From the IMG/VR virus record IMGVR_UViG_3300006754_002917, positions 1 to 27,906 of that record: a DNA stretch of 27,906 bases. One strand, written 5' to 3'. Origin of the DNA: a virus. The translations under genes and the position numbers were made by a program. Below, in pieces: positions 1-16,341 of the stretch. Each line of letters begins with the position of its first letter. The stretch's first letter is position 1. Under the pieces are notes generated by a model. The model made no database searches and was not told the origin of the DNA. It was given only the letters and a program-made list of their open reading frames with translations.

Positions 1-2274
1 GCAGAAGACCCGGGGCTGAAATTACGATTGCGGTTGGAAGATTATCAGAGAGAACTTGAAGCAAGTAAGAAAGGATTAAAAAGATTTCAAGCAACAGATG
101 ATCAGTTCAGAACAGCAAGGTCAGATGAATTTAGAATTAGAGATGATCTTGATCTAACACAACAAAGGTTGGATGACCTACCAGATCATCCAGATCCTGA
201 TAGACTTAGAGAACTAGAAGATTTAGTGGATGAAGCTAGGGCTTATGTACTGATGGCTCAGGGGGGTGTTGGAGAAGTAGGCGAGGCTGCTGCAAGGGCT
301 TCCGTTGGGAAGACTGCTAAGCAAATGACAGAATACGATGAACTACTTTATCGTGAATTTGTGCAGACACTTGAACGACATATTATGGGAAAAACTGTTA
401 AAGGTGAAGTTGATAGGATTGGTGCAAAGATTAAACCTCCCGGTCAGATTAGAGAGGTACTGTTAGCATTGTTCAAGACTGATAAGACTGGTGCATATAT
501 GGCTGGTAAGGCTTTTGGTGAAGTGATACAGTGGCTACAGACATTTAGATATTCAGCATTGCTTGGAGCAAGAGCAGCATTTCACGCAGTCAATATATTT
601 ACTGCTCCTCAGATTATATGGGGTACATTAGGTGGAAGAGCGGCTGCTGCCTCTCTGTCTCCGCAGAAGATGATGCTGGCTCATAGGGTTTGGCAGGTAG
701 GTAATCCGGCTGTTGGTGGAAAAATACCAAGAGGGGTAAAAACCTTAGGTGCACCTGATAGTGCAAGGCTTGCAATGCAGGATGCTATGGGCAGGAAGTA
801 TACCTATGGTGATATCTGGGAGATGGCAATAGGAACTGGTGGATTGAGATCTCAGACAAGATTAATTCTTGAAGCTGGAGAATTCAAACATATTCTTGAT
901 GATGCTAGATTTGATCAAGGATATAGAAGCTTTGTAAAGGAAGGGATGGCTAGACTATATGGTCCACTTGCTGGTGCGGCTGCTGCTCGGACTGGTGAAG
1001 TGATACATCCATTGACAGCAGGTGCTGCACATTTAGGTGGTGCTGTGGCTCCTGTTCCTCAGAGAATTGGTGGTAAGGTAGTAGGACTAAAGCAGAATCC
1101 TTATGCAAGGTTCTTGGCTAATATGACTGAATACGAAGATCAATACTTTAGATTGACACAGGTGTTACACGCTATAGAAAGAGGTGATGATCCATTTATG
1201 GCAGTAGCTGCTGGTCGTAGATCATTGTTTGATTATGGTTCAATGACTGGTGTAGAGAAGTGGGCAGTACAAAGGTTTATGATGTTCTGGGCTTTCTTCA
1301 GATTGAATATGCTTAATACACTGGGTGTGCTGTTAAGTAATCCTAAGAGGTTTGCTAACATCTATAGAACTACACAGGCTCCGCAGACATTGAGAGAAAA
1401 GAAAGGTAAGGTACCTGAAGGGGTACCATTGATGGGTGGATATGAATTTGGTAATTCGTTTGGTGGATATAATACTGCTGAATTAGATTTCTATTCGCAT
1501 CATTTCCTGCTGACTAGACCGATGATTAGTTATATGGAAGGAGCGGATAAGCAAAGTCATTATACCTTTATGCCTCCAGTTCCGATATTGGATGCAGCGG
1601 TTACAGCGTCAGAGATTATGATGGCTCCTAATTGGGATACAACTATTCAGCCATTTAGAGATTATGTGAATCCTGATTTGAAATTAATACTTGGACAGAA
1701 GTCAAGAATAGAATGGAAGAAAAAGTATGTAGATCCAAAGGATATATATTTGTTTACTGAATCAGGTTGGGGTGATTGGTTCTGGAATACTATGATTAAA
1801 GAGGAACCGACAAGGACACCAGCAGTGGCAGGAGAAGAACACTACGGTGGCTTCAGATACACTTTAAGTGATGAAGGTATGGAAAGGTATTTGTACTTTA
1901 AGAATACACTGGCGCCGTTCCTGACCGTACCCAGCGTTATGGGAACTGATACTATACCGTTGACACATTTAGTTTCTACAAGACTTGGTGCACCAACAGG
2001 AATGTTTGGTAAGCAGTTCGGAGAAGAAGGCGAAGGTGATGTACTTGGATCATTAGGTATTGTTCGTAAGGTTGGTTCAATTCCTGTTACATCTCAGCGA
2101 ACTATGCTTCTCAAAGAATTAGAGAAGAGATTAATACAGATGGAAGAAGAGGCTGGTGTACAAAATCAAGATCTGCAATATCAAGGTATAAATCCAGTGG
2201 AAGCAGAAAGAAATAGAAAGGTACAAGAGATGCAAAGAAAACGAGAAAAGGAGCGTCCTCGTTATCGTGAATGA
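1..2274 (+). CDS. C-terminal part of a giant phage internal (ejection/polyvalent-type) protein, 5' end outside window
   Basis: The frame is open from base 1 (757 codons before the TGA), so the true start lies upstream of the window, or at 25624 if the ends join. The N-terminal part seen here is charged and helical. A more hydrophobic helical region lies near codon 180-200 (YSALLGARAAFHAVNIF), and an aromatic-rich segment near codons 405-440 contains RRSLFDYGSMTG and FMMFWAFFRLN. That segment resembles the large polyvalent protein associated domain LPD38 found in giant phage proteins; this match is from memory and not searched. The C-terminus is strongly charged (RNRKVQEMQRKREKERPR), as in DNA- or membrane-associated ejection proteins. 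It follows the tail and internal-protein genes in gene order, which supports a virion-internal role such as T7 gp16-type ejection. No lysozyme or transglycosylase motif was recognised. Function is inferred mainly from size and position. Confidence 0.6.
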   Translation, partial: AEDPGLKLRLRLEDYQRELEASKKGLKRFQATDDQFRTARSDEFRIRDDLDLTQQRLDDLPDHPDPDRLRELEDLVDEARAYVLMAQGGVGEVGEAAARASVGKTAKQMTEYDELLYREFVQTLERHIMGKTVKGEVDRIGAKIKPPGQIREVLLALFKTDKTGAYMAGKAFGEVIQWLQTFRYSALLGARAAFHAVNIFTAPQIIWGTLGGRAAAASLSPQKMMLAHRVWQVGNPAVGGKIPRGVKTLGAPDSARLAMQDAMGRKYTYGDIWEMAIGTGGLRSQTRLILEAGEFKHILDDARFDQGYRSFVKEGMARLYGPLAGAAAARTGEVIHPLTAGAAHLGGAVAPVPQRIGGKVVGLKQNPYARFLANMTEYEDQYFRLTQVLHAIERGDDPFMAVAAGRRSLFDYGSMTGVEKWAVQRFMMFWAFFRLNMLNTLGVLLSNPKRFANIYRTTQAPQTLREKKGKVPEGVPLMGGYEFGNSFGGYNTAELDFYSHHFLLTRPMISYMEGADKQSHYTFMPPVPILDAAVTASEIMMAPNWDTTIQPFRDYVNPDLKLILGQKSRIEWKKKYVDPKDIYLFTESGWGDWFWNTMIKEEPTRTPAVAGEEHYGGFRYTLSDEGMERYLYFKNTLAPFLTVPSVMGTDTIPLTHLVSTRLGAPTGMFGKQFGEEGEGDVLGSLGIVRKVGSIPVTSQRTMLLKELEKRLIQMEEEAGVQNQDLQYQGINPVEAERNRKVQEMQRKREKERPRYRE

Positions 2275-2287
2275 TTTAACATATTAT

Positions 2288-2299
2288 CCTTATATAAGG
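2288..2299. repeat. 12-bp palindrome CCTTATATAAGG in the gap before the next gene
   Basis: This perfect palindrome lies 13 bases after the stop of the giant protein gene and directly before the strong ribosome binding site of the following gene. It could be a small operator or chance in AT-rich DNA. It is too short and AT-rich to act as a terminator. Confidence 0.3.
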
Positions 2300-2315
2300 T
2301 AGGAGGAGAAGAAGA

Positions 2316-3095
2316 ATGCCTATTGCAAGAACATTTGCTATTACAGCCCCATCAGCACCGGCTACTTGGTCACAAGGTATTGGTAGTGGTCAGGGAGATT
2401 CGGCTTGGAATGAAATAGATCTGGCTGATAATAGCTGGACAAGAACTGCTAATGGTACTACTGTAACTACATTAGCGGTTGACGGATCTAATAAGCATAC
2501 ATTTACTATGACGGCAATTGCTAATAGTGATGCTGATCTGTGTCCGTTAACTGGTGGTAATTTTACTGGAGATACTTGGACTAAAGATCTACAGATGCCA
2601 GACAATTCTCAGATAGTTGGTGATGATAACTGGATCATAGTAATGGAAGCACACATATATGATCCGGGTGCAGATAAGGCAAATATTGGTTTGACCTTCG
2701 GTGTCTGTGCAGATGCTCAAGCTACAGTAATAAATGATAGAGCATTCTTTGGTACACTGGTATACGAGACTGATGCGGCTACAGTTCAGTACGGAGGTGG
2801 TGTACAGTGCAGAGGAGCAATGACAAAGAACAGCAGTACAGCGATTAATCGGGTATATAATGTTTTTACTTTTAGTCAGGGTATAGCAGGTGCTGGATCA
2901 TTCCATACATTCTCAGCGGCTAATGCTACATTGGGTAAGGGAGCAAGGCAGGCGAATTACAATTGGGTTGGGAATCCAAATATAAAGTTATGTGTGCAGG
3001 TAGGTTGTCGTCAGAATAGTGACACCTATGCTGCAGGAAAAAAGATGTTGATCAATATGAGATACAAATTAATTAAGTTGTCAGATCTACCGTAG
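2316..3095 (+). CDS. Beta-rich probable virion surface protein
   Basis: This gene encodes 259 residues and begins after a very strong Shine-Dalgarno site (AGGAGGAG), which fixes the ATG. The protein is rich in Thr, Ser, Gly, Asn and Ala with alternating hydrophobic residues, typical of beta-sandwich or beta-helix phage appendages. No signal peptide, membrane segment or catalytic motif is visible. It sits between the giant internal protein and a second beta-rich protein with an equally strong ribosome binding site, suggesting both are made in quantity. A head or tail fibre, or a carbohydrate-binding accessory protein, is the best guess. I do not recognise the family. Confidence 0.55.
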   Translation: MPIARTFAITAPSAPATWSQGIGSGQGDSAWNEIDLADNSWTRTANGTTVTTLAVDGSNKHTFTMTAIANSDADLCPLTGGNFTGDTWTKDLQMPDNSQIVGDDNWIIVMEAHIYDPGADKANIGLTFGVCADAQATVINDRAFFGTLVYETDAATVQYGGGVQCRGAMTKNSSTAINRVYNVFTFSQGIAGAGSFHTFSAANATLGKGARQANYNWVGNPNIKLCVQVGCRQNSDTYAAGKKMLINMRYKLIKLSDLP

Positions 3096-3107
3096 GAGGA
3101 AGAAGAA

Positions 3108-3542
3108 ATGGGCGCAACAGGAAAATATATACATTGTAGCAGAGATGTTACAACAGGTGCAATTGCTTTAGCGGCTGCATATAATCCCGGATTATATCAT
3201 ACTATTAGATGTAACAGTGGATTGGATACACGGACACAGGGTAACCAAAGGTTATATATGTCAGGTGTACATATTCAATTGGCTGGCTTAGGAGGCGGTG
3301 CAGCTACAGTAACATTTAATCTTAGTGCTGATGCTGCTGGTGATGTTATCATTGTACCAGATACTGCGTGTACAATTACACCGGGGTTGACGACAGTGAC
3401 AGTCGGATTAGGTTCAGCGTTAGTAGATGTAGATTATGTATTAGGTGCAATGGGATGTACTGACAATACACTTTATCTACACGCTAAGATAAATGCTGGT
3501 ACTGCTAATATGACATTGACTGCAATTACTTGGGAAGAATAG
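3108..3542 (+). CDS. Small beta-rich probable virion decoration or fibre protein
   Basis: This gene encodes 144 residues. The start is set by AGGAGG upstream of ATG, 12 bases after the preceding stop. Composition is Gly, Ala, Thr and Val-rich with short beta-strand patterns (for example AATVTFNLSADAAGD), few charges and no membrane segment. It looks like a single jelly-roll or Ig-like beta domain of the kind used in phage decorations and receptor-binding modules. It is co-directional and almost contiguous with the previous beta-rich gene, so the two may form one structure. The family is not recognised. Confidence 0.5.
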   Translation: MGATGKYIHCSRDVTTGAIALAAAYNPGLYHTIRCNSGLDTRTQGNQRLYMSGVHIQLAGLGGGAATVTFNLSADAAGDVIIVPDTACTITPGLTTVTVGLGSALVDVDYVLGAMGCTDNTLYLHAKINAGTANMTLTAITWEE

Positions 3543-3545
3543 GTT

Positions 3546-3773
3546 ATGGAATTTGAAGCATTGGCTGCGTTGATTGCTGGTCCGTGTGGAGGATTAGTTG
3601 TTGCTGTTTATTTTCTCAGGTCTTTTATTGCATTTCAGAAAGATACTATTGCGAAAGTATTGGAAAGTGCAGATGATGATAGGGAATTGTTTAGGTCGGC
3701 TCTTAGTAAGATTGATGTTCGCTTACAGTATCTTGAGAAGTTGGTTGAGAAACAGTGTAGGTGTGATAAGTAA
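3546..3773 (+). CDS. Small membrane protein with coiled-coil tail, holin-like
   Basis: This gene encodes 75 residues and starts three bases after the previous TAG. Residues about 5-28 form one hydrophobic segment (ALAALIAGPCGGLVVAVYFL) that is long enough to span the membrane. The rest is a charged amphipathic helix (KIDVRLQYLEKLVEKQ) ending in a Cys-containing basic tail. This plan of one N-terminal membrane helix plus a cytoplasmic coiled coil matches many small phage holins or spanin-like partners. Its place at the end of the late operon, with short genes, also suits a lysis function. No endolysin is recognisable beside it, so the holin call rests on topology and position only. Confidence 0.45.
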   Translation: MEFEALAALIAGPCGGLVVAVYFLRSFIAFQKDTIAKVLESADDDRELFRSALSKIDVRLQYLEKLVEKQCRCDK

Positions 3774-3774
3774 G

Positions 3775-4026
3775 ATGGGATTCTATGAGAGCGATAGGAT
3801 TCGGCGTAAGCAGAAGTTAGTTAAAAAGATTATTAAGAAGAGGGAAGATATGGGTAAGGCAGAAGAAGTAAGTGTTAGTGTAGCGGACGATCTATTGAGG
3901 TTGCTCTGGAAAGTATTCAAGTATGGCAAAGGTGGTTATACAAAAGAAGAAGCCAGAGATCTCGGAGAAGACCTGCTGGCTCTTGCATTTGAAGTACTTG
4001 AGAAAGCACTAGATAAGGAAGACTAA
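3775..4026 (+). CDS. Small charged helical protein of unknown function
   Basis: This gene encodes 83 residues from the ATG one base after the previous stop, probably by translational coupling. The same frame is open further upstream inside the holin-like gene, but that part reads as an out-of-frame shadow. A second ATG at 3850 has a better Shine-Dalgarno site (GAGGGA) and would give 58 residues. The N-terminus is very basic (RIRRKQKLVKKIIKKR) and the C-terminus is an acidic amphipathic helix. The stop codon overlaps the stop of the convergent gene by three bases, with no visible terminator between them. No family recognised. Confidence 0.5.
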   Translation: MGFYESDRIRRKQKLVKKIIKKREDMGKAEEVSVSVADDLLRLLWKVFKYGKGGYTKEEARDLGEDLLALAFEVLEKALDKED

Positions 4027-4712
4027 GCGATCATAGATCCAGTGATAATCTTAATTACATTGGACTTGCGTTCAGCGTGGATATCTTCAAAGTCGTTGGG
4101 TTGATTATTTTTTAAGTCAGCCCAGTGTCCTTTGTTTAGTATAGTCCAGATGCGTTTGCATTGTGGTACATTCTTGATGGATGGAATGATATGTCCAGTC
4201 CAGTATAAAGTATCCTTGAGAGGGATGATGGATTTGAATCCGTATTCCTCAGCAGTAGGCATATCGCCGTGTGGTACTTTATAGATGAAGCCGGGACAGT
4301 CATTACGATTATCCATATTCTGATGTGCTACACCCATACGACAGTTCATTTGTTCCATCTTTTGAAAACGCTTGTATAGTGTTTTGGCGTGATAGAAATG
4401 AGCAGTATAGTTTTTCATATTGACGAAGCAGATTAGATCTATTAGGTCAATGTTAGTATACCATTGAGGTCGTTTAGATTTCTGATCGTCCTGATAGATT
4501 TCAAATACGAAGTCGCTATAGCCTACTTGGTTCCAGTCTAATGCCTTGACCTCTATGTTCATAGTGGCTCCGGATTTCATTAGTGCTGTAAGATCGTAGG
4601 GGAATATACGATAGTCCATCTTTTGACAAGGATGGTTATGTTCCTCAAATGCTAAGCGTACTGCTTGCTCTGTCCATTCTGCTTTGATTAGGTCTGTGTT
4701 GAAATTTTGCAT
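4023..4712 (-). CDS. PD-(D/E)XK-like nuclease, second gene of leftward operon
   Basis: This gene encodes 229 residues from the ATG at 4712, which has AAGGAG at good spacing. A longer frame from 4751 overlaps the upstream gene and was rejected. The N-terminal half shows a plausible PD-(D/E)XK nuclease core: an early helix with Glu15 (EWTEQAVRLAF), PYD with Asp40, then IEVK with Glu54 and Lys56 after a 13-residue gap. Such folds occur in phage exonucleases, Holliday junction resolvases and restriction-like nucleases; which one applies here is not clear. It could degrade host DNA, process replication intermediates or help recombination. It is co-transcribed with a sigma-like protein. The motif reading is by eye, so the fold is likely but not proven. 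Confidence 0.5.
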   Translation of the reverse strand: MQNFNTDLIKAEWTEQAVRLAFEEHNHPCQKMDYRIFPYDLTALMKSGATMNIEVKALDWNQVGYSDFVFEIYQDDQKSKRPQWYTNIDLIDLICFVNMKNYTAHFYHAKTLYKRFQKMEQMNCRMGVAHQNMDNRNDCPGFIYKVPHGDMPTAEEYGFKSIIPLKDTLYWTGHIIPSIKNVPQCKRIWTILNKGHWADLKNNQPNDFEDIHAERKSNVIKIITGSMIA

Positions 4713-4740
4713 AGTAGTTTTCTCCTTATTGTTATTACTG

Positions 4741-5400
4741 TTATGCAGCATCAGATTCTACTGGTGTAGGTAGTGATGCCTTCAAGGTAAGTCCCTTGAA
4801 TTTGTGGATTAGTTTCCGTTTATGACTGTGGAAAGTTTGTCGTGTAACAATCTTGCCGGGGTAATTCAGAACATATTTGTAATGTTCGTCGTATACGATA
4901 TCGTCCAGTCCAGTCATTGACCGGAAGATAAAGCGTTCTCGTTCTGTTGCGTGATATTCGCAGAAGTCAGAGATAAGTTGATAGATAGATTTGTTTGTCA
5001 TTAGTTCCTCCATATTATCTATTGTACTATAAGTTAGACTATTTGTAAAATCTTTTAGTTTATATTGTAATGTTCGCTTATACCTTTTGGATTGTTTGCG
5101 AAGCTTGTATGAATACCAGTCCCTGAATATCTTGATAGATAATGGTTTGAATTGTTCAATGGGTAGGTCTATAAATTTAGTTAGTGCTCGTTGTTCCTCA
5201 GAATAAAATGCTGCTGAGGTAGAGAGAATAGATCGTTCTAATTTATCTGATGGATTCCAGACACGACAGGTAGCTCTAAAGTATTCAGCCTTCTTGACTT
5301 GATGTGTCATACAGAGAAGAGCGTGAAAGTATGAGGCGATGCCGTTGCGGTCAGTTAATAAGAAATGGATCTTATCGTCGGGTAGTAGTTTGGATTGCAT
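4741..5400 (-). CDS. Putative transcription regulator with sigma region 4-like C-terminus
   Basis: This gene encodes 219 residues, starting at an ATG about 27 bases downstream of the expected transcription start of a good leftward promoter, with a weak AGGA site. Residues about 90-118 are strongly basic and helical. Residues about 151-202 (from ATERERFIFRSMTG to TRQTFHSHKRKLIHKFKG) follow the pattern of sigma70 region 4 or late-activator helix-turn-helix domains, with an extended loop between the helices. It could redirect RNA polymerase or repress promoters in the divergent control region next to it. The gene is followed, 28 bases on, by the nuclease-like gene. The N-terminal half has no recognised domain. 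Homology is weak, so a DNA-binding protein of another type is possible. Confidence 0.4.
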   Translation of the reverse strand: MQSKLLPDDKIHFLLTDRNGIASYFHALLCMTHQVKKAEYFRATCRVWNPSDKLERSILSTSAAFYSEEQRALTKFIDLPIEQFKPLSIKIFRDWYSYKLRKQSKRYKRTLQYKLKDFTNSLTYSTIDNMEELMTNKSIYQLISDFCEYHATERERFIFRSMTGLDDIVYDEHYKYVLNYPGKIVTRQTFHSHKRKLIHKFKGLTLKASLPTPVESDAA

Positions 5401-5434
5401 TGGTAGTAGTTCCTATGTTTTGTACTGTATATAT

Positions 5435-5463
5435 AGTATACCAGATTATTAGTAGATTGTAAA
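5435..5463 (-). promoter_or_regulatory. Sigma70-type promoter of the leftward operon
   Basis: On the minus strand, TTTACA (5463-5458) is separated by exactly 17 bases from TATACT (5440-5435). The predicted transcript starts near 5428, leaving a short leader before the ATG at 5400. The boxes match the bacterial consensus at five of six positions each, so host RNA polymerase should recognise it. Confidence 0.7.
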
Positions 5464-5540
5464 CTATTATTTTTATTATTGTTAATATTTATTGTCCATA
5501 TAGTAAATAGGTATGTACAAAAGAAAATGCCAATTTAATT

Positions 5541-5597
5541 TGAAATAAAATAAAAAAGACCCCGACCCTGAAACTACTACATAAAAGGGAAGGGGTC
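5541..5597 (-). terminator. Leftward intrinsic terminator with no protein gene in front of it
   Basis: Read on the minus strand, GGGGTC (5597-5592) pairs with GACCCC (5563-5558). An inner AGGG/CCCT stem sits across a two-base internal loop, and the apical loop is about 16 bases. The hairpin is followed by TTTTTTATTTTATTT. On the plus strand there is no T tract, so the terminator acts only on leftward transcripts. It isolates the leftward operon promoter from transcription coming from the right. Confidence 0.6.
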
Positions 5598-5749
5598 CGA
5601 AGTCAAAGTCCAGAGCCAAAGGAGAATGGCTAATCCATATGGACGACCTCTAATATATTATACATTGTAAAATGCAGATGATCAAGAAGAATTGAAATAA
5701 ATAAAAATGAAAATAAATTAAAAAAAGTCTTTACAATTTTCTGGGTAAA
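5551..5749 (-). ncRNA. Candidate leftward small RNA of about 200 nt
   Basis: A minus-strand promoter with boxes TTTACC and TATACT at 17-base spacing (5784-5756) is followed about 160 bases later by the terminator hairpin at 5597-5558. No protein gene with a ribosome binding site lies between them. A hydrophobic minus-strand frame from a TTG at 5893 begins upstream of this promoter and so is not fully transcribed from it. The transcript has nested pairing potential (GTCC 5608-5611 with GGAC 5641-5644 and AGCC 5614-5617 with GGCT 5628-5631). Its role is unknown. Control of the divergent genes, antisense to the rightward leader, or replication control are possible. Confidence 0.35.
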
Positions 5750-5797
5750 GCAGTTAGTATAGATGTAGGTAAGGAATTGGTAAACAGACGACCATAT
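5728..5797 (+). repeat. Two-copy regulatory element, copy A
   Basis: This 70-base segment matches 16268-16328 in the same orientation. A 33-base block (5728-5760) is identical at 30 positions, and a 17-base block TAAACAGACGACCATAT (5781-5797) is identical; the spacers are 20 and 11 bases. The left block contains TTTACA and, 19 bases on, TAGTAT, a poor match to a normal sigma70 promoter. The block beginning CTTTAC and ending GTAAAG can form a 6-bp stem. Copy B stands in front of the tail operon, so a phage-controlled promoter or regulator-binding site is the leading idea. Confidence 0.55.
5756..5784 (-). promoter_or_regulatory. Leftward sigma70-type promoter inside copy A
   Basis: On the minus strand, TTTACC (5784-5779) is followed after 17 bases by TATACT (5761-5756). 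Copy B lacks this arrangement because its spacer is nine bases shorter. It would drive leftward transcription starting near 5749 towards the terminator at 5597. Confidence 0.45.
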
Positions 5798-5890
5798 GAG
5801 AATGGATTTCTGAAAGAATAAATACTGAGGAATATAGAATATATTATAGTAGAGACTGAGGGGTGAAAGTTCTGATAGATTATTTCTTAT

Positions 5891-5915
5891 CAAGACCGAA
5901 GGAACTGAGGTCTTG
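5891..5915. repeat. Perfect 7-bp hairpin in the rightward leader region
   Basis: CAAGACC (5891-5897) pairs with GGTCTTG (5909-5915) across an 11-base loop. On the plus strand it is followed by a T-rich but interrupted tail (TTAGTTGTTAGATTATTTAA), so it might be a weak attenuator or end for rightward transcription from copy A, or an operator. Confidence 0.3.
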
Positions 5916-6070
5916 TTAGTTGTTAGATTATTTAATTTGAAAGTTGAAAGTTAGAAGTTAGATTAAAGTGATAGTGTCCTTCAGATTAATTTATTAATAA
6001 AATTATTTATTTAATATTATTGTAATAGAAGATTAAACAAAATGTTATAGTTGGTTATTATATATATAAC

Positions 6071-6097
6071 TGATTGATTGAATGGTTTGATTGATTG
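6071..6097 (+). repeat. Short direct repeat TGATTGATTG, two copies
   Basis: The 10-mer occurs at 6071-6080 and 6088-6097, each made of ATTG-type units, next to an AT-only tract and just before the ribosome binding site of the first rightward gene. It may be a regulator or initiator binding site, or simply low-complexity sequence. Confidence 0.35.
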
Positions 6098-6122
6098 GTT
6101 GAAATAATAAAGGAGAAATAAA

Positions 6123-6557
6123 ATGTCAGTAAGTTATAGAGATTTAGAGAAAGAGAAGAAGAGATTAGAGAGAGAGGAAAGAATATTATTGAAGGAGATT
6201 AATATGAAGAGAGATTATTATGAGATGATGTTTGGTGAGGATAGTAAAGAGGAGAGAGGAAAGTTAGAGGAGATTATAGAAGAGAAGGAGAAGTTATATG
6301 AAAGGAGAGAAGAAAGTATTAGTGAATGGGGAAGTGAGGTAGAAGGAAAGTTGATAAGGGTTAGGACAAAAAGTATTGGCTACTTTGGTGTTGGTGTAAA
6401 GAATGTGAGAGGTAGGATTAAAAGAGGAGAGGTAGTAGTTTGTATGGGTAGTAGGAAGGAGAATGAGAGAAGGTTATTGTGTATGTATAATGGTGGCTTG
6501 GTTAGTATTAGTAAGAAGCAAGTGATTAGAGAATGTGATGTGATTGACGAGGCGTAG
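6123..6557 (+). CDS. Cytosine-depleted early gene: coiled coil plus small basic C-terminal domain, unknown
   Basis: This gene encodes 144 residues, with AAGGAG placed well before the ATG. Residues 1-70 are a highly charged Lys/Glu/Arg coiled coil. Residues 75-144 look like a small beta-barrel (GRIKRGEVVVCMGSRKENER, then NGGLVSISKKQVI), perhaps SH3-like. The gene has only 8 cytosines in 435 bases, and 239 consecutive bases have none, which forces codons to GAG, AAG, AGA, TTA and ATT types. The protein therefore has no Pro or His and almost no Ala, Thr or Gln. It heads the rightward small-gene cluster and is closed by its own terminator. Function unknown; a host-takeover or nucleic-acid-binding protein is a guess. 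Confidence 0.6.
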   Translation: MSVSYRDLEKEKKRLEREERILLKEINMKRDYYEMMFGEDSKEERGKLEEIIEEKEKLYERREESISEWGSEVEGKLIRVRTKSIGYFGVGVKNVRGRIKRGEVVVCMGSRKENERRLLCMYNGGLVSISKKQVIRECDVIDEA

Positions 6558-6571
6558 TAGATAAGAGATAG

Positions 6572-6616
6572 ATCCAGTGGTTGTAATGGCTGCTGGATTT
6601 ATTTTATTTATTTGTA
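6572..6616 (+). terminator. Intrinsic terminator after the first small gene
   Basis: ATCCAG (6572-6577) pairs with CTGGAT (6593-6598), and the stem can extend inward to about 11 bp using several G-U pairs around a GTAAT loop. It is followed by TTATTTTATTTATTTG. It lies 15 bases past the stop codon. Confidence 0.6.
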
Positions 6617-6625
6617 ATAGTAGGG

Positions 6626-6653
6626 TATACAAAAGTAAAGGATATGGTATAAT
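6626..6653 (+). promoter_or_regulatory. Sigma70-type promoter before the second small gene
   Basis: A consensus TATAAT (6648-6653) is preceded after 16 bases by TATACA (6626-6631). Transcription would start near 6660, giving a leader of about 60 bases in which TGAGG (6661-6665) can pair with CCTCA (6691-6695). Its position just after a terminator supports it. Confidence 0.55.
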
Positions 6654-6720
6654 ATATATATGAGGTTAGGGGATAGCTCATTAAATAAATCCTCAGCATT
6701 TTGATAAAGGAGATAAAGAA

Positions 6721-7026
6721 ATGTTAAGAATTCAAGAGAATGTATATATGATGGATGAAGAAGGTAATAAGTTTATGAAGCTTATGGATGCTGAAGAATG
6801 TATTGCCTGTTATTGGGTGAGGGCAGTAATTGGTTTGAAGGATGGTATGGATCAAGTGGTAGGTAATTATTTCTTCAGTAGATTAGAGGATGCAGAAGAT
6901 AAGATGAGAATGATAAGAAGAGGAGAATATGGTATTGATGAGGAAGGAGAAGATGTATTGTTTGGAGATGAAGAGAAGTGGGGTAATGCTTCAGCTTGGA
7001 TTAAGCCTATTAGGGCAATGAGGTAG
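6721..7026 (+). CDS. Small acidic protein, unknown, own promoter and terminator
   Basis: This gene encodes 101 residues; the ATG is fixed by AAGGAG eight to nine bases upstream. The protein is acidic and Met-rich (KMRMIRRGEYGIDEEGEDVL) with two cysteines in ECIAC and no membrane segment. It is monocistronic, with a promoter at 6626-6653 and a clear terminator at 7038, which suggests strong independent expression. It shares the purine-rich, cytosine-poor codon use of its neighbours, though less extremely. No family recognised. Confidence 0.6.
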   Translation: MLRIQENVYMMDEEGNKFMKLMDAEECIACYWVRAVIGLKDGMDQVVGNYFFSRLEDAEDKMRMIRRGEYGIDEEGEDVLFGDEEKWGNASAWIKPIRAMR

Positions 7027-7037
7027 AGATATAATTA

Positions 7038-7074
7038 GAAGCCCTTGGCTGTACGCTGAGGGCTTCCTGTTTTA
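7038..7074 (+). terminator. Intrinsic terminator
   Basis: GAAGCCCT (7038-7045) pairs with AGGGCTTC (7059-7066). Four more pairs, two of them G-U, extend it (TGGC with GCTG) around a TGTAC loop. It is followed by CTGTTTTA and begins 12 bases after the stop codon. Confidence 0.65.
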
Positions 7075-7136
7075 CTAAATGGTAGTTTATATAGGTGGAT
7101 TAATAGGATGGCTTAGAAGACAAGGAGAGGCGTTGT

Positions 7137-7490
7137 ATGAAATGGAAGAAAGGAGCGGAGGATAAAAGAAAAAATGAATGGAAGATTATTAGAGGAGATA
7201 GAACAGTGACAACATTGACGGCAGAAGAATTAGCGTGGAGAAGAAATAAGATAAGATATCTAAGAGAGATAGATTGGAAGAAGATAAAAAGAAATAATGT
7301 AGAATTAGTTTCTTTAATATTTGCTATAGCAGAGATAAAGGCTAAAGAAGATAATGGTATGTCTCAGCGTAATCAAAAGAATTTCTATGAGACAACTTGT
7401 GATAAGACTTTAGATGAGATATGGAAAGATATAAAGGGAGGCAAGTATAATGGAAAAGAAAGGTGTATACAGATTCTTTATTATGATTGA
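7137..7490 (+). CDS. Small basic protein, unknown
   Basis: This gene encodes 117 residues from an ATG preceded by AAGGAGAGG. The N-terminus is very basic (MKWKKGAEDKRKNEWKIIRG). A central amphipathic helix (VELVSLIFAIAEIKAKED) and a short C-terminal domain with two cysteines follow. It could bind nucleic acid, but no motif is diagnostic. Its last 41 bases overlap the next gene, which implies coupled translation. Low-cytosine codon use matches the cluster. Confidence 0.55.
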   Translation: MKWKKGAEDKRKNEWKIIRGDRTVTTLTAEELAWRRNKIRYLREIDWKKIKRNNVELVSLIFAIAEIKAKEDNGMSQRNQKNFYETTCDKTLDEIWKDIKGGKYNGKERCIQILYYD

Positions 7491-7644
7491 TGGCATTGGT
7501 AATAATGTAGATGAGGCGTTGGTAAATGCTATGAATTCAGTAGGGATAGATGATCCAAATAAATTGACTGGAGATATAGACTATAAATTAATTAAAGAAT
7601 ATAAAGATATAGTGTATGTGCATAGTAAGGTAGGCGAAGCTTAA
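7450..7644 (+). CDS. 64-residue protein, unknown, overlapping the previous gene
   Basis: The start has an excellent ribosome binding site (GGGAGG, eight bases before the ATG) inside the end of the previous gene, in another frame. The sequence alternates a beta strand (GVYRFFIMIDG), a helix (NVDEALVNAMNSVGI), and a strand-like end (KDIVYVHSKV), suggesting a compact alpha/beta domain. No catalytic motif was found. It is followed by about 230 gene-free bases that carry the next promoter. Confidence 0.55.
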   Translation: MEKKGVYRFFIMIDGIGNNVDEALVNAMNSVGIDDPNKLTGDIDYKLIKEYKDIVYVHSKVGEA

Positions 7645-7708
7645 TCCTCAGCACACTTAGTGTTTAGTAATAATTCTTTGGAATATAAGAATATATTCTA
7701 GATAAATC

Positions 7709-7737
7709 TTTACATAAGTATCTGGCTGGTGTATAAT
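7709..7737 (+). promoter_or_regulatory. Strong sigma70 promoter for the sigma-like gene
   Basis: TTTACA (7709-7714) and a perfect TATAAT (7732-7737) are separated by exactly 17 bases. Transcription would begin near 7744 and leave a leader of about 135 bases, AT-rich and without an obvious fold, before the gene at 7879. The -35 context TCTTTACA is shared with both copies of the two-copy element. Confidence 0.75.
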
Positions 7738-7878
7738 ACTAATGGTAATTATTTTACATAATGATTATTTATATGAGGTGAATACTTATAGTTATTACTA
7801 ATTATTATAGTAAGATGTTCAGTTGATTTATGTAAATAGTTAAATGAATGGATACTAATGTTAAGGAGACTATAAGGT

Positions 7879-8337
7879 ATGTGTAAAATCGAAACGGATG
7901 AGAATAATAAAAGAATTAGAAAGAAGAGGTATAGAAAGTTCAAGGATGATTGGCGTTATATTGGCTGTGATAATTGGAGATTAGATAAGGTCAGTGGACA
8001 TTATTCCCCAGAAGATGAATGGATTAATCAGATTGATAACGAAAACATTATCACATTTCCCCCTCAGATAGCATTGGTCGATTGGATCGCAGATGTGCTG
8101 GAGGAAAGGGAAGCAAAAATAATAAATGATTTTGTGTGGGAAGGTAGAAGTATGGATGAGATAGGAAAGGAATTAGGTTATACAAGACAGAGGATATGGC
8201 AGTTGTACAAGCAAGGGCTAGAGAAGATAGGCGAGATAGTGGGAGATGCAGAACAGTTCAAGGCTCTGTTCATTATGGAAGGGAATGGTAGAGATAAAGA
8301 GAATAAGGAACAACCTCATTTGGCGCAAGCCAAATGA
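7879..8337 (+). CDS. Sigma70 region 4-type helix-turn-helix protein
   Basis: This gene encodes 152 residues behind the best promoter in the window and an AAGGAG site. Residues about 65-117 read as a sigma region 4: EEREAKIINDFVWEG, then a helix-turn-helix, MDEIGKELGYTRQRIWQLYK, then QGLEKI, matching the EIG..LG.TR.R..Q pattern of the -35-binding helix. The N-terminal 60 residues are basic and aromatic and do not resemble region 2, so it is unlikely to be a complete sigma factor. It may be an appropriator or activator that alters host polymerase at phage promoters. The last codons and the TGA stop lie inside a perfect hairpin. Confidence 0.7.
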   Translation: MCKIETDENNKRIRKKRYRKFKDDWRYIGCDNWRLDKVSGHYSPEDEWINQIDNENIITFPPQIALVDWIADVLEEREAKIINDFVWEGRSMDEIGKELGYTRQRIWQLYKQGLEKIGEIVGDAEQFKALFIMEGNGRDKENKEQPHLAQAK

Positions 8338-8342
8338 GGTTG
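8311..8342 (+). terminator. Perfect 14-bp hairpin with GCAA loop, overlapping a gene end
   Basis: CAACCTCATTTGGC (8311-8324) pairs perfectly with its complement at 8329-8342 around a GNRA-type GCAA tetraloop. The stop codon of the upstream gene (8335-8337) is inside the right arm. There is no clear U tract after it (TGTGTTAGATTAAAA), so it may be an RNA-stability or processing hairpin as well as, or instead of, a terminator. Confidence 0.5.
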
Positions 8343-8427
8343 GTGTGTTAGATTAAAATCTAAGAAGAAGAAGATAAGAATTAATTAATTAATTCTGTAA
8401 ATATAGGATAGGGAGGATATAATAAGA

Positions 8428-8691
8428 ATGAAGAAAACTACATTCAAAGCGATCAAGGATCGTGATATAGAAACGGTGTTATGGGATTTAGTGGATGAAG
8501 CTATGAGGGAATTTAATGTGTCTCGGAATTGTAAGATAGGGAGACAAACATTTAGTAATATCCTCAGTACGCTAAGTCAGATGGAGATGTTGAGACGAAG
8601 AAGAGAAGATAAGAATTATGATAAGAAGATAGAGCAGGAAGAATATGATATGAAAGATTGGTTGACAGTATTGGATGGTACAGGAAAGTAA
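8428..8691 (+). CDS. Small helical protein; possible small terminase subunit or regulator
   Basis: This gene encodes 87 residues, with GGAGG about 11 bases before the ATG. It is entirely helical and charged: an N-terminal KDRDIETVLWDLVDEAMREF helix, a middle region (GRQTFSNILSTLSQM), then MLRRRREDKN and an acidic end. Small size, helical make-up and a place two genes before TerL would suit a small terminase subunit, but no helix-turn-helix is clear and the position is not diagnostic. A DNA-binding early regulator is equally possible. Confidence 0.45.
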   Translation: MKKTTFKAIKDRDIETVLWDLVDEAMREFNVSRNCKIGRQTFSNILSTLSQMEMLRRRREDKNYDKKIEQEEYDMKDWLTVLDGTGK

Positions 8692-8693
8692 TC

Positions 8694-8725
8694 AGATAAG
8701 TGAATGAGATAAGTGAATGAGATAA
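8694..8725 (+). repeat. 13-bp tandem repeat carrying two ATG-AGA-TAA minimal frames
   Basis: The unit AGATAAGTGAATG occurs at 8694-8706 and 8707-8719, with a partial third unit to 8725. Each repeat junction creates a two-codon frame, ATG AGA TAA (8704-8712 and 8717-8725). It starts three bases after a stop codon and runs directly into the hairpin at 8725. Confidence 0.6.
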
Positions 8726-8753
8726 ACCCAAATTCGCAAAGCGAATTTGGGTT
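8725..8753 (+). terminator. Perfect 13-bp hairpin with AAA loop
   Basis: AACCCAAATTCGC (8725-8737) pairs perfectly with 8741-8753. Only TGTAAGAATAG follows, so there is no U tract. It resembles the hairpin at 8311-8342 in design and may be a processing or stability element between small genes. Confidence 0.5.
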
Positions 8754-8775
8754 GTAAGAATAGTAAGGAAATAAA

Positions 8776-8970
8776 ATGTTTAAGTTGGTGTTAGGTAAGT
8801 TGGATGTGGATGTGAGGATAAAGAAGGATAGAAGGAAGAATCAATATAGTAAGTCAGATCTATCGGTGAAGATAAAAATAAAATATGATGATGATTGGAT
8901 AGATGTGGATATTGATAAGGGTAAGTTAAGAGATGTGGTTGATGATTGGGTAAGTGATATAAGTGGTTAG
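8776..8970 (+). CDS. 64-residue charged protein, unknown
   Basis: The start follows AAGGA after a perfect hairpin. The protein alternates Lys and Asp with Val and Ile (KLDVDVRIKK, DDDWIDVDIDKGKL), consistent with a small beta-rich domain. It lacks Pro, Ala, Thr and His, in line with the local absence of cytosine: its last 106 bases contain none. No family recognised. The coding call depends on the ribosome binding site and codon pattern. Confidence 0.45.
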   Translation: MFKLVLGKLDVDVRIKKDRRKNQYSKSDLSVKIKIKYDDDWIDVDIDKGKLRDVVDDWVSDISG

Positions 8971-9060
8971 GTTAGTTAGGTTGGTTTGGTTTATGTGGTA
9001 ATGGTTAATGTGGTTAATGGTTTTGGTTATGGTAATTAATGGTAGAAGAATATAATGGTT
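8967..9060 (+). repeat. G/T-rich low-complexity tract with GGTTA-type repeats
   Basis: This gene-free stretch is made of G, T and A only. GGTTAGGTTAGTTAGG is followed by several copies of TGGTTAATG and TGGTTATGG. It lies inside a 218-base run without cytosine (8865-9082). Short frames here start in low-complexity sequence and were not accepted. It could be a regulator or replication-protein binding tract. Confidence 0.45.
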
Positions 9061-9138
9061 AATAATGAAATGAATAGTGAATCATATCTAAACTGTAAAA
9101 ATATAAAAAATATATATAAGGTATATAAGGGGTATATG

Positions 9139-9167
9139 TTATCATATAGAATTTATCTATATGATAA
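9139..9167. promoter_or_regulatory. Perfect 12-bp inverted repeat upstream of terL, possible operator
   Basis: TTATCATATAGA (9139-9150) is the exact reverse complement of TCTATATGATAA (9156-9167), with ATTTA between. It lies about 70 bases before the terL start, preceded by two GTATATAAGG-like repeats. A second small stem, CCAAA with TTTGG, and six T's follow near 9172-9196. A dyad of this length suits a dimeric regulator; the arms are too AT-rich for a strong terminator. Confidence 0.4.
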
Positions 9168-9238
9168 TAGCCCAAAATTATTTGGCACCATTTTTTCCAC
9201 ATTGACATTACTATTGTTAAAGACGGAGAAACCAATAT

Positions 9239-10750
9239 ATGCTTAATGATAAGCTGCATAAGGTACTGGATGATCCCCTACAGTTTATTAGTCGTCTAAA
9301 GATTATTAATAAATTAGGAGAACTATGTAACTTACGCCCTACCGCTGAGCAACTGAAGATGTATGAGGCATTGGAAGGGGATAAGGATGTATTGATTCTG
9401 AAGCCAAGACAGATAGGCAGTACTACATTTGTTTCAGCGTGGTTATTCTATAAGTGGTTCACGGCGAAGGAACCTATCACAATCGCTATACTAAGCCATA
9501 AGATATCCTCAGCGAAACATATGTTGGCTATGTATAAGCGTTTCTATAGTACATTGCCGAAACAACTACAACGAGAATTAATTGTTGAGAATACTACTGA
9601 GATGGTATTCGCAGATACAGGTGCTAAGATTATGGCGGTGTCTGCTGAGGGGAAAGGTGGACTTAGATCTTTTACTTGTAATTTCTTGCATATGTCTGAA
9701 TATGCTTTTGCTCCTAATCCTGAAGAACTTAAGGCTACTGCCATAGGTGCTCTTAATGGGAACAGGTTAATCATAGAGAGCACTGCGAATCATTATGGTG
9801 ATGCCTTACATCAAGAAGTCATCAAGGCACAGAGAGGGGAAGGACATTGGAACTATCAATTTTTTCCGTGGTTTGAGCATCCGAATTATGTTGCTGATTA
9901 TCCTGAAGGCTGGAAGCATACCGACTTGGACTATCAGAAACATCATCTGCTCAGTCAGAACCAGATGTACTGGAGAGCCAATATGATCCATAGGATTGGC
10001 GCAGAGAAATTTAGGAGGGAATATCCGGCAACATTGGAAGAAGCATTTGCACAAGCAGGTACAGCGTATTTCTCTGATGAGGATCTACGGTACATTGAAA
10101 CGAAGAATGTTGAGGCTGTTAACAATAAAAAATATATTTGGACTGAGCCTGATCTTAACAGTTCTTATGCTATTGGTGTGGATGTTGCTTCTGGTAGAGG
10201 TGGTGACTATTCAGTCATTACCGTTATGGATAAGATTAGTTATCAGCCTGTGGCTATGTTTCGTAGCAATACAACAGTTCCTGTGGACTTGGCTGATAAG
10301 ATTATTATTTTAGCGACGAAGTATAATGAGGCTAAGGTATTGGTGGAAGAGAATAACTGGGGGCTTCCTGTCCTGAATGAATTAAGGAATAGAGGGTATT
10401 ACAACCTCTGGTCTGATCAGAAGGGTAAGGACTGGATAACAACTACGAAGTCCAAGATCATTCTATTTGAGGAACTTAAGGCGCTTCTTTCTGAGGGTGT
10501 TATTACACAACTAGACAGCATTACTTATACGGAGCTTCGTTCCTATCAATTAGATGATAGGGGTCTGGCTCCTAAGGTTCCATCTAATTTGGATCATCAC
10601 GGTGATACTGTGATTGCTCTGGCATTGTGTTGTCAGTGTCTTAAGCAGGTTCAACTACATAAGTCGGCATACCTTCCTGACTGGATTAAAGAAAGAAGGG
10701 TTCAACGGGTATTGGATACCTCATTCGGTCAGAAGGAGAAGAGGTATTAA
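9239..10750 (+). CDS. terL: Terminase large subunit (packaging ATPase and nuclease)
   Basis: This gene encodes 503 residues, full length for the family. The N-terminal ATPase has a P-loop at about 55-63 (KPRQIGSTT), with the lysine moved in front of the usual position as in lambda-type terminases. A Walker B region lies near 148-155 (NFLHMSEYAF) and the coupling motif ESTAN near 180. The C-terminal RNase H-like nuclease has Asp315 (GVDVASGRGGDYS), Glu370 or 371 (VLVEENNW) and Asp456 (HHGDTVIA). It cuts and pumps phage DNA through the portal encoded next to it. The ATG has CGGAG upstream. Shadow frames on both strands inside it were ignored. Confidence 0.93.
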   Translation: MLNDKLHKVLDDPLQFISRLKIINKLGELCNLRPTAEQLKMYEALEGDKDVLILKPRQIGSTTFVSAWLFYKWFTAKEPITIAILSHKISSAKHMLAMYKRFYSTLPKQLQRELIVENTTEMVFADTGAKIMAVSAEGKGGLRSFTCNFLHMSEYAFAPNPEELKATAIGALNGNRLIIESTANHYGDALHQEVIKAQRGEGHWNYQFFPWFEHPNYVADYPEGWKHTDLDYQKHHLLSQNQMYWRANMIHRIGAEKFRREYPATLEEAFAQAGTAYFSDEDLRYIETKNVEAVNNKKYIWTEPDLNSSYAIGVDVASGRGGDYSVITVMDKISYQPVAMFRSNTTVPVDLADKIIILATKYNEAKVLVEENNWGLPVLNELRNRGYYNLWSDQKGKDWITTTKSKIILFEELKALLSEGVITQLDSITYTELRSYQLDDRGLAPKVPSNLDHHGDTVIALALCCQCLKQVQLHKSAYLPDWIKERRVQRVLDTSFGQKEKRY

Positions 10751-10785
10751 TTTTACATATTATACATTAATAGGGAATCTAAAGA

Positions 10786-12498
10786 ATGGCACTAACACAT
10801 AGTGAAAAGAACGGCTTTGTCCGTGCTGTCGTTGCAGAGCACGAAGCCTTGTGGTCCGAGAGACAAAGCGATATGCGTAAGTATAAGGCTGCGTATATGA
10901 CAAATTTCTATAAGGAGAGGAATGCATTTGATACACACGCTCAATTGAGGGTGGAGACTTCGGATGCATATGCTTATATTGAAGGCTTCATTGCAAGTCT
11001 GTTTAGTAAGGCACCATCTATTGAGATAGGTGCTGATATTCAGGGTAAGGGCAATAAGAATATGATTAAAGAAATTGCTAATCGTTTCTTATTTGAACAG
11101 AAGACGCAGTTGGAATTGGCTTCCAGACTGGCTCTGATTTATCCTAATAGTTTTATGAAGTTATATCCTAAGGATAGTAACAACATACTTGATCGTGTAG
11201 GTATCAAGGCATTGTCTCCTTGGGAAGTTATAGTTGATAGGGATGCTACTACTTGGGACGAACAGAGGTTTATTGGACACATCTATTATGAGACTGTGTC
11301 TGGTATGAATCATAAGTTTGGTGCTAAGAAGTGGAATCCAATTACGAAGACAAGTTATTTTGAAGAGCACGGAGCACCGGCAGATCCGTATGATTCTACA
11401 GACAATCTGCCTAATCAGTTCTTGTATTGTAAAGTGGTTGAACTGTATGATATGATTAATGGTAAGTTATATTTCTGGACCCCCAATTGGAGCGGAGGAG
11501 ATAAACTATTATCCGAGGATGATATCCCATTGGAAGATCATAATGATGAGCCAGTTGCTCCGATCGTACCTTTATATTATTCCCGTGTACCTGATCAGCC
11601 AATGGATGGCATTAGTGCTATGAAGCGTATCTATGATCAGGTGTATGAGAAGAATATCCTTCGGTCGTTTTGGGCTAACGCTGTTCGTAGAGATACAAGG
11701 CAATACCTTGTCAAAGAGGGTGCAATTGATGAAGAAGCATTAGCCAAAATTACTGCGGGGATAGATGGTGCTATGATTCCTGTAGATGCTGAAACTTTAG
11801 GCAATATTATTTCTGTGGTGCCATCTATCCCCATTTCTTCAAATCATTCGTTGTACCTACAACAGATTGATCAAGATCTTGCTAAGGGTTCTGTTATGGC
11901 TCCCTTTACTAGAGGTGAGACTACTAAGACATCGGCAACAGAGATTGCTGCTTTGGCTCAGTATACTGCATCAGAGATCGGACGACTTGCCAGAGAACGA
12001 GATGGTATGATTGAACAGATTGCTGAGAAGTATATTGGAATTATATCCTTGATTTCTGAAGAGGAAGCTAAGGAAGTTATTCTGTTGGAAGGAACACCTG
12101 AGATTGTTACACCTGAGAAACTACAAGGTAAGTTCAAGTATGCTGCATTGGATCAGGCAAGTACACCAATTGCAGAGAGCGTAAGACGACAGCAACTATT
12201 ACAGTTGGTGCCGGTGCTTACGACTTTGGGTGTTGAACCTTGGAAGATACGAGATGAGATTATCAGGCTATATGATCTACCTCGTCAGTTTAGTGAGACA
12301 CCTGAGGTACGACAGGAACTTGATCCAAGGGCTGTTGCTGAAGGTAAGAGGATGCCGAAGGCAAGACCTGATGGTGCACCCTTTTCGACGGAGCCAGTAA
12401 GTCCTGAAGAGGAAGTGGCTAAGCAATTTGGAGCAGGACGACGAGGAACTATTCCATTCCCAATGCCGGGAGACTTTGGTTCAGAGGGTGCGAATTAA
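10786..12498 (+). CDS. Portal (head-tail connector) protein
   Basis: This gene encodes 570 residues, directly after TerL and before the scaffold. The N-terminal helix-rich region (RAVVAEHEALWSERQSDMRK) and the later segment around residues 370-410 (MAPFTRGETTKTSATEIAAL, followed by a long helix) match podovirus portals, in which SATE begins the long helix near the channel. The C-terminus is Pro/Gly-rich and flexible. It forms the dodecameric ring for DNA entry and exit and binds the terminase and the tail adaptor. The ribosome binding site is weak. Its TAA overlaps the ATG of the next gene by one base. Confidence 0.88.
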   Translation: MALTHSEKNGFVRAVVAEHEALWSERQSDMRKYKAAYMTNFYKERNAFDTHAQLRVETSDAYAYIEGFIASLFSKAPSIEIGADIQGKGNKNMIKEIANRFLFEQKTQLELASRLALIYPNSFMKLYPKDSNNILDRVGIKALSPWEVIVDRDATTWDEQRFIGHIYYETVSGMNHKFGAKKWNPITKTSYFEEHGAPADPYDSTDNLPNQFLYCKVVELYDMINGKLYFWTPNWSGGDKLLSEDDIPLEDHNDEPVAPIVPLYYSRVPDQPMDGISAMKRIYDQVYEKNILRSFWANAVRRDTRQYLVKEGAIDEEALAKITAGIDGAMIPVDAETLGNIISVVPSIPISSNHSLYLQQIDQDLAKGSVMAPFTRGETTKTSATEIAALAQYTASEIGRLARERDGMIEQIAEKYIGIISLISEEEAKEVILLEGTPEIVTPEKLQGKFKYAALDQASTPIAESVRRQQLLQLVPVLTTLGVEPWKIRDEIIRLYDLPRQFSETPEVRQELDPRAVAEGKRMPKARPDGAPFSTEPVSPEEEVAKQFGAGRRGTIPFPMPGDFGSEGAN

Positions 12499-13001
12499 TG
12501 CCGTTTTATGAATATCAATGTAAGGGCTGTAAGAATATAGTGGAAGCCTTGGTGGAAATGGGTAAAGGTGATCTATGGATGGATGATCACGAATGTGCTA
12601 TCTGTGATGCAGATGGTAGACGAAAGCAACACGGTTGGTCACGATTGATATCCGCTCCAGCAAGAACAGTTACCCTTTGGGGAGATGAGACAGGTAAGTA
12701 CGGTGTAAACGGTATGTATAGTTCTGCTCTGGGGCGAAGGGTAACTAACAAACGAGAAGAGGAAGCTATCTGTAGGAAGATGGGTTATGTGAATGCTAAT
12801 GATCTTCCTCAGGGCTTTGTGGATAATAAGATTCAATCTCAGTTGGCAGAAGACCAGCACTTTGAGAATCTTAATAGTGCCTATAAGAAGAAGGTAAAAG
12901 AATACGGTTCTACTTATGGTGGTACAATGAAGGCTATATGTGAAGTATTGCCTGCTAAGGAAATGCTTAAACAGTCCGATGAAAGGGAGGCAAAAACATA
13001 A
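12498..13001 (+). CDS. FmdB-like zinc-ribbon protein in the head operon
   Basis: This gene encodes 167 residues. The N-terminus MPFYEYQCKGCKNIVEA with cysteines 8, 11, 33 and 36 is a typical FmdB-family CxxC...CxxC zinc ribbon. The remaining 125 residues are charged and not recognised. It is stitched to its neighbours by one-base TAATG overlaps on both sides, so it is made in step with the portal and the next protein. Zinc ribbons of this type are common as short genes beside phage portals, but here a longer C-terminal extension is attached. A role in assembly or in binding DNA or RNA polymerase is possible. Confidence 0.65.
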   Translation: MPFYEYQCKGCKNIVEALVEMGKGDLWMDDHECAICDADGRRKQHGWSRLISAPARTVTLWGDETGKYGVNGMYSSALGRRVTNKREEEAICRKMGYVNANDLPQGFVDNKIQSQLAEDQHFENLNSAYKKKVKEYGSTYGGTMKAICEVLPAKEMLKQSDEREAKT

Positions 13002-13531
13002 TGGCATTAGAATTACGATTAGAAGATAAGGATATAGCACCTGAGGTATTACAAGGTCAGGAGCAGACAGCACAGGCAGAGGATGAACTGGTTGGTGAAT
13101 TCCAGCCAAGAGGTAGTTTCTCTAAGAAGCCTCTTAATACTTTGGTTATTCAGGCTAAGAAGGGTCAACCGCTTTATGGACTTAAGGCTGACTATCCTAA
13201 CTTTACTGAAGATCAGGCGGAACTACCGATTGAATTCGTTCGGTTGCTCCTTATGTTTAAGCAAAGTGTTGATGATGCTATTGTGGCTGATATCCTAGAC
13301 GAAGAAGATACATTTGTTTTGGAAGATATTACTGATGATTCCAGTCTTAAGATACTGGCTGGTAAGTTGGGTAAGGTATTCCGTAATAGTAAATTTAAGA
13401 AGTTTCTTGCAACCCCTGATGAAGAGGCTGTGGAATTAAGTCCAGCAGAGGAATCTCTGGATGATGAGAGAACGCCGTTGCCAGAAGGTAGCGACGAAAG
13501 TATTGAAGACTTATTTTTAGAGAGGGTATAA
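13001..13531 (+). CDS. Acidic head-operon protein, unknown
   Basis: This gene encodes 176 residues, translationally coupled to the zinc-ribbon gene by a TAATG overlap. It is strongly acidic, with disordered ends (ELSPAEESLDDERTPLPEGS) around a central folded part (FVRLLLMFKQSVDDAIVADI). It lies directly before the scaffold gene. It may be a scaffold partner, a capsid assembly chaperone, or a minor head protein. No catalytic motif or membrane segment was seen. Confidence 0.5.
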   Translation: MALELRLEDKDIAPEVLQGQEQTAQAEDELVGEFQPRGSFSKKPLNTLVIQAKKGQPLYGLKADYPNFTEDQAELPIEFVRLLLMFKQSVDDAIVADILDEEDTFVLEDITDDSSLKILAGKLGKVFRNSKFKKFLATPDEEAVELSPAEESLDDERTPLPEGSDESIEDLFLERV

Positions 13532-13533
13532 CA

Positions 13534-16328: not shown

Positions 16329-16341
16329 AGGAATTGGAAAT

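Follow-up and report, generated by a model that had tools for sequence, protein, structure and literature searches.

The window analysed here, a 27,906-base virus record taken at its full length, has a podovirus-like gene layout with genes for terminase, portal, major head protein, and a small sigma-70 region 4 protein (Table 1). The control region at 5400-6122 separates two divergent operons, one running leftward from 5400 to 4023 and the other, the early operon, running rightward from 6123. The early operon is made of small G/A-rich genes, and the stretch 6000-9000 shows an extreme GC skew of up to 0.79. The leader of the rightward operon (5800-6120, plus strand) carries several ACTGAGG motifs, and a similar motif is found in the leader of a relative, L042.

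Scans of IMG/VR returned L003 and L016, with 99.7% identity to the window over the control region, and L015, with 84% identity over 482 bases. L042 was found through a portal-protein profile, and its homologue of the protein encoded at 4741-5400 is 71% identical. L003, L016, and the window were counted as one version, and the comparison therefore involves three distinct versions: the window, L015, and L042. Scanning with a profile of the 4741-5400 protein brought in only one more relative, the distant L111 (31% amino acid identity), which has a different leader and gave no match to the small RNA unit described below. A host search with the portal alignment over genome contigs found no relative among 51 stretches. 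L015 also spans the ends of the window (1 and 27906) and holds about 2.2 kb between them that is absent from the window; the window's two end ORFs form a single 2275-aa frame in L015 (3598-10425), corresponding to a giant structural-type protein.

Table 1 Features of the control region, the predicted small RNA, and the genes and elements discussed in the text.
Feature	Position	Strand	Details or evidence
Own promoter of the leftward operon (5400-4023), beyond the terminator	5435..5463	-	TTTACA-17-TATACT with TG
Predicted small RNA, ~104 nt	5547..5650	-	Ends inferred: 5' from the -10 box, 3' from the U-tract
Intrinsic terminator	5547..5598	-	Stem-loop 5598-5557 and U-tract 5557-5547; fold, shuffles, kept in relatives
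5' domain of the predicted small RNA	5599..5650	-	P1, P2, and hairpin P3
P1, basal stem	5650-5645 with 5604-5599	-	Formed also by L015 and L042
P2	5644-5640 with 5612-5608	-	Common to the window and L015 only
Hairpin P3	5631-5627 with 5618-5614	-	Formed also by L015 and L042
Loop of P3, UUCUCCUU; anti-Shine-Dalgarno sequence and proposed seed for pairing	5619..5626	-	Predicted folds, invariance
Likely small RNA promoter	5657..5685	-	TTGATC-17-TATAAT, 10/12; -35 5685-5680, -10 5662-5657
Promoter of the original prediction, judged spurious	5756..5784	-	TTTACC-17-TATACT, 9/12
Rightward element, two copies	5728..5803 and 16268-16334	+	Conserved promoter/operator-like sequence
Early/regulatory start preceded by AAGGAGA	4712	-	
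Early/regulatory starts preceded by AAGGAGA	6123, 6721, 7137, 7879	+	
Small sigma-70 region 4 protein	7879		
Terminase	9239		
Portal	10786		
Major head protein	14683		

A leftward terminator and its promoter candidates

The minus strand of the control region holds an intrinsic terminator, GGACCCC-UU-CCCU(loop)AGGG-UC-GGGGUC-U6, that is real and far beyond chance. A leftward hairpin with a U-tract had been proposed at 5597-5541 in the original prediction, and the calculations bear it out: the 60 nt from 5541 to 5600 fold at -19.1 kcal/mol (z -3.98), which none of 200 shuffles equalled, and dinucleotide shuffling of the minus strand over 5400-6122 produced a terminator of -15 kcal/mol or below in 3 of 1000 cases (-12 kcal/mol or below: 10 and 5 of 1000 in two runs). 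Counting only those shuffles that also placed a promoter at a fitting distance, by criteria chosen after the site had been seen, left 0 of 1000 (-15) and 1 of 1000 (-12) for a promoter score of at least 10/12, and 2 of 1000 for at least 9/12. The terminator is absent from the list of a fixed-loop scanner because its loop is longer than the 3-8 bases covered there. One A-U stem pair is U-A in L015, and L042 keeps the U-tract but forms the stem anew from different pairs.

We also considered the terminator loop as a pairing seed and rejected it, the loop being identical in L015 but not in L042. Allowing up to 3 mismatches, its complement has no other occurrence in the window, and the exact loop pattern was found in three stretches of other phages, all of them contigs of L003, L015, and L016.

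Judged from sequence, the better candidate for a promoter feeding this terminator is probably the hexamer pair at 5685-5657. Its position is kept in both relatives, as TTGAAA-17-TATACT in L015 (10/12) and as TTGTAC-17-TATACT in L042 (8/12, with a weak -35), the matches in the relatives being counted by hand, and all three versions share the spacer piece CATTTTACA unchanged. Transcription from this promoter would be expected to start at the G (5650) with which the basal stem P1 begins in the window, and a matching GAG likewise opens the basal stem in L015 and L042. The promoter originally named lies further upstream, at 5784-5756. Its hexamers do exist, at 9/12, but it does not hold up as a promoter: matches of this kind occur at chance level in the genome (45 against 49.9 expected, sd 7.8, in 1-14000; 12 against 7.5 expected, sd 2.5, in 4700-6300), the site lies on the repeated rightward element, and it is lost in the relatives, the -35 reading CTTACC in L015 and the spacing being 3 nt shorter in L042, with a poor -10. 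For these reasons the RNA is likelier to measure about 100 nt (from about 5650 to 5547) than the roughly 200 bases first proposed, and we regard a ~200-nt transcript from 5784-5756 as very improbable.

Fold, conservation, and coding potential of the RNA

The segment 5545-5650 folds at -37.1 kcal/mol (z -3.75), a value equalled by none of 200 shuffles, and the whole RNA is also stable in the relatives, with z -2.79 in L015 and -2.93 in L042 (from a sequence lacking two bases at the 5' end). Taken by itself, the 5' domain has moderate stability, with z -2.58 in the window (2 of 200 shuffles), -1.93 in L015, and -1.94 in L042; plus-strand folds of two of these 5' domains gave z -1.69 and -1.73. 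Folded separately, the window, L015, and L042 each give the basal stem, a hairpin with the loop (U)UCUCCUU, and the terminator, and the L042 RNA carries an insertion of about 30 nt at the position of P2.

A covariance model built from L015 and L042, with the window left out, matches the window at 5553-5659 with 68.4 bits (E 3.3e-11), and L003 and L016 score the same. Over 88 sources this model gave one further match only, at chance level (17.7 bits, E 1.6). A search of other phages for the promoter-to-loop pattern found it in contigs of L003, L015, and L016 only, with L042 falling just outside the allowed spacing. A simpler scan for the loop plus a terminator misses L015 and matches 8 other loci (L050, L054, L061, L064, L065, L076, L094, L107), so that the combination of loop and terminator alone is not diagnostic; the conserved place, start, and fold are diagnostic of the unit.

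Covariation among the homologous control regions, which had been put forward as a check on the RNA, gives suggestive, not decisive, sequence support for the fold. When the alignment is fitted to the model, both partners differ in 6 of 24 pairs, a count that 1 of 500 shuffles reached and that slid structures did not approach (at most 2), while the number of further pair types is unremarkable (145 of 500 shuffles). The signal is weak in a plain, unfitted MAFFT alignment of L015 and L042, with 3 of 16 pairs changing on both sides (56 of 500 shuffles). When the helix arms are aligned by hand, each counted pair is a standard one in all three versions, in an alignment that was made to fit. Alignment A7 was kept out of this argument, as it includes a chance match (8306-8412) that inflates its counts, and alignment A5 and the first three-way alignment place P3 of the window 2 nt off.

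The interval evolves as non-coding sequence, and the claim that it holds no credible gene was borne out. A case for a small protein could be made from an 87-aa minus-strand ORF (5630-5893), for which tblastn aligns 62 residues in L015 (72.6% identity) and 67 in L042 (47.8%); the frame is open in part in the relatives, and its gaps relative to the window measure 9 nt (L015) and 3 nt (L042). Despite these matches, the frame shows no coding signal. Substitutions between the window and L015 fall evenly on the three codon positions (10/7/10, against 5/5/24 in the neighbouring gene), those between the window and L042 do so as well (18/20/23), and all six frames are alike in similarity between the window and L015 (64-73%). 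An open minus-strand stretch of this length arises in 52 of 500 shuffles, and the ORF has a TTG start without a Shine-Dalgarno site. On the plus strand, mini-ORFs after AAAGGAGA would yield peptides of 14, 16, and 9 aa in the three versions; because these are unrelated to one another, the plus-strand AAAGGAGA looks like no used ribosome site. That either the 87-aa frame or a plus-strand mini-ORF encodes a small protein is, in our judgement, exceedingly improbable.

Computation thus provides the terminator, the conserved fold, the promoter position, the non-coding mode of evolution, and the invariant loop as observations. The core of the original prediction was a small RNA transcribed leftward and ended by a terminator ahead of the leftward operon's promoter. 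It is supported by a terminator, a fold, and promoter positions that are kept in all three versions, and we consider it highly probable that such a unit, as predicted from sequence, exists. The terminator might instead be a mere insulator against stray leftward transcription before the leftward operon, its transcript being functionless. The unit does sit between divergent promoters, and the terminator clearly stands out as its strongest feature, but an insulator needs neither a conserved 5' fold that begins at +1 nor an invariant 10-nt stretch placed in a hairpin, and we hold this explanation to be unlikely.

The anti-Shine-Dalgarno loop and its candidate targets

The invariant stretch in question, UCUCCUUUGG, is identical in the window, L015, and L042 and is complementary to Shine-Dalgarno sites. 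In the predicted folds of all three versions, the anti-Shine-Dalgarno motif is single-stranded in the loop of P3. In L042, a second CUUAUUCUC motif lies upstream of the conserved loop (3110-3187, minus strand) and is possibly a duplicated seed.

The matching site, AAGGAGA, occurs 14 times in the window against 6.9 expected, and 1 of 100 shuffles contained as many. It lies at most 18 bases upstream of 5 of the 9 early or regulatory starts and of none of the 18 structural starts (Fisher p 0.0016), and the shorter AGGAGA is found upstream of 5 of 9 and 1 of 18, respectively, with the early and structural labels assigned by the analyst after the pattern had been seen. L042 shows AGGAGA before 9 of 13 early starts and AAGGAGA before 4 of 13; by automatic gene calls, the counts are 9 of 17 and 4 of 17. 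The G/A richness of the early region, with its GC skew of up to 0.79, could alone enrich AGGAGA.

Pairing energies favour early starts when only the loop is considered, with a mean of -8.2 kcal/mol at early starts against -6.1 at structural starts (p 0.013), a difference reached by 8 of 500 permuted loops. An assumed 16S tail sequence does not discriminate early from structural starts (p 0.33). The strongest individual loop pairing, at -10.6, is with the structural gene 2316. When the entire 5' domain is allowed to form duplexes without constraint, structural genes again come first, among them 23131 and 25624.

It seems to us about equally probable as improbable that a trans-acting phage small RNA that blocks ribosome binding on early mRNAs is encoded on the minus strand between about 5650 and 5547. 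We infer its transcription, accessibility in the cell, targets, and timing as follows. RNA polymerase would start at about 5650 from the promoter at 5685-5657 and stop at the terminator, releasing an RNA of about 104 nt, in which the basal stem would present the hairpin with its anti-Shine-Dalgarno loop UUCUCCUU. The loop would pair over 7-9 bases with the AAGGAGA sites before 6123, 6721, 7137, and 7879, and before 4712 on the other strand. With ribosome binding blocked, early protein synthesis would end, and most structural genes, which have differing sites, would be spared.

Action in trans is favoured over attenuation or cis-antisense pairing because the leftward operon has a promoter of its own beyond the terminator, with hexamers and spacing identical in L015 and TTTACA-16-TAATAT in L042, and because the unit overlaps no mapped target reading frame. 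A leader that allows conditional leftward read-through into the operon 5400-4023 would suit a unit that is on the same strand and directly upstream of it, and that shows 84-100% identity over the interval in L003, L016, and L015. Besides the operon's own conserved promoter, what speaks against such an attenuator is that the terminator is the best structure in each of the separate folds, and we rate it as quite improbable.

The targets of a real RNA might also lie elsewhere, the loop mainly silencing host mRNAs with AAGGAG-type sites or titrating host factors or small RNAs. A seed this short and general would pair with any Shine-Dalgarno site of the AAGGAGA type; the site type moreover appears to be independent of the RNA in L069, where the unit was not found and AAGGAGA precedes 5 of 15 early genes. 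The seed nevertheless fits the phage early set better than the structural set. Among 137 early starts called automatically in 15 relatives that yielded no copy of the unit, 17 have AAGGAGA upstream and 29 have AGGAGA, the former share being lower than in the window (5 of 9), although the control regions of these relatives may lie outside their contigs and L042 itself has 4 of 17. A mainly host-directed role appears unlikely to us.

Under a small RNA directed at the phage's own early mRNAs, a more far-reaching idea can be raised tentatively, as possible though doubtful: the RNA could be a dedicated translational early-off switch that silences the common AAGGAGA site of the early genes as one regulon. 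Its loop would be tuned to AAGGAGA and not to GGAGG, the canonical site that several late genes have, and the structural genes would stay on. Such an early-off regulon would be the novel part, the RNA itself being a new example of a kind already known. With its readable seed and its set of predicted targets, the predicted unit of these podovirus-like uncultivated phages bears on whether phages turn off gene classes translationally through one loop matched to a class-specific ribosome site.

Known systems and neighbouring elements

The 4227 models of Rfam gave 0 matches in the window. The best match to a small RNA family was a full-length alignment of suhB/mmgR (RF00519) to 5543-5631 (minus strand) at chance level, with 14.4 bits (E 3.6) against the 41 needed for gathering, and there was none in L042. 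In the open-access literature, we found no phage-encoded anti-Shine-Dalgarno small RNA of this type. According to a 2025 review, the functions of phage small RNAs are largely unknown, and the examples consulted there come from temperate phages or prophages (PMC12197685).

Several known RNAs share features with the predicted one. AbcR1/AbcR2 (alpha-r15) and NfeR1 of Sinorhizobium meliloti are likewise anti-Shine-Dalgarno small RNAs (PMC8844928); they are bacterial, carry the motif CUCCUCCC/UUCCCCUC where the phage RNA has UUCUCCUU, and mainly target transport and metabolism genes, whereas the targets of the phage RNA are predicted ones only. The c4 antisense RNA of phages P1 and P7 is also phage-encoded and blocks translation by pairing around the ribosome binding site of a phage mRNA, with complementary sequences that are probably located in loops (PMC12197685), as is predicted for the RNA described here. 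It acts on a single antirepressor mRNA (ant) of temperate phages, whereas the RNA here overlaps no annotated target and, unlike the single-target c4, has a seed that is a general complement of early-type Shine-Dalgarno sites. VpdS of phage VP882 and PreS of phage lambda are also trans-acting phage small RNAs; they differ in being described as Hfq-bound, acting on both host and phage RNAs, and belonging to temperate phages (PMC12197685), and their sequences were compared with ours via Rfam only.

The protein encoded at 4741-5400 (minus strand) adjoins the RNA and gave a sub-threshold match to ProQ/FINO, an RNA-chaperone family (E 0.026, 15 bits, cut-off 27). We did not retain this identity, which structure prediction does not support: the model was of low confidence (pLDDT 52) and gave no fold match at E <= 0.001. 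Against PDB sequences, the protein returned nothing better than E 0.27.

The rightward element consists of TCTTTACAATTTYCTNGSTAAAGCAGTTAGTAT followed by TAAACAGACGACCATAT and stands before both the early operon and the tail operon. It can be read as TTTACA-19-TAGTAT with a CTTTA/TAAAG inverted repeat. Its second copy was correctly said to lack the TTTACC-17-TATACT promoter, and directly before that copy we noted by eye a strong rightward terminator-like hairpin with T8 (16206-16258, plus strand), which the scan did not list. The element is kept before the tail operon in L008, L009, L010, L011, L022, L034, and L041. It is likely a phage-specific promoter or operator, and the sigma-like protein encoded at 7879 is a candidate for reading it.
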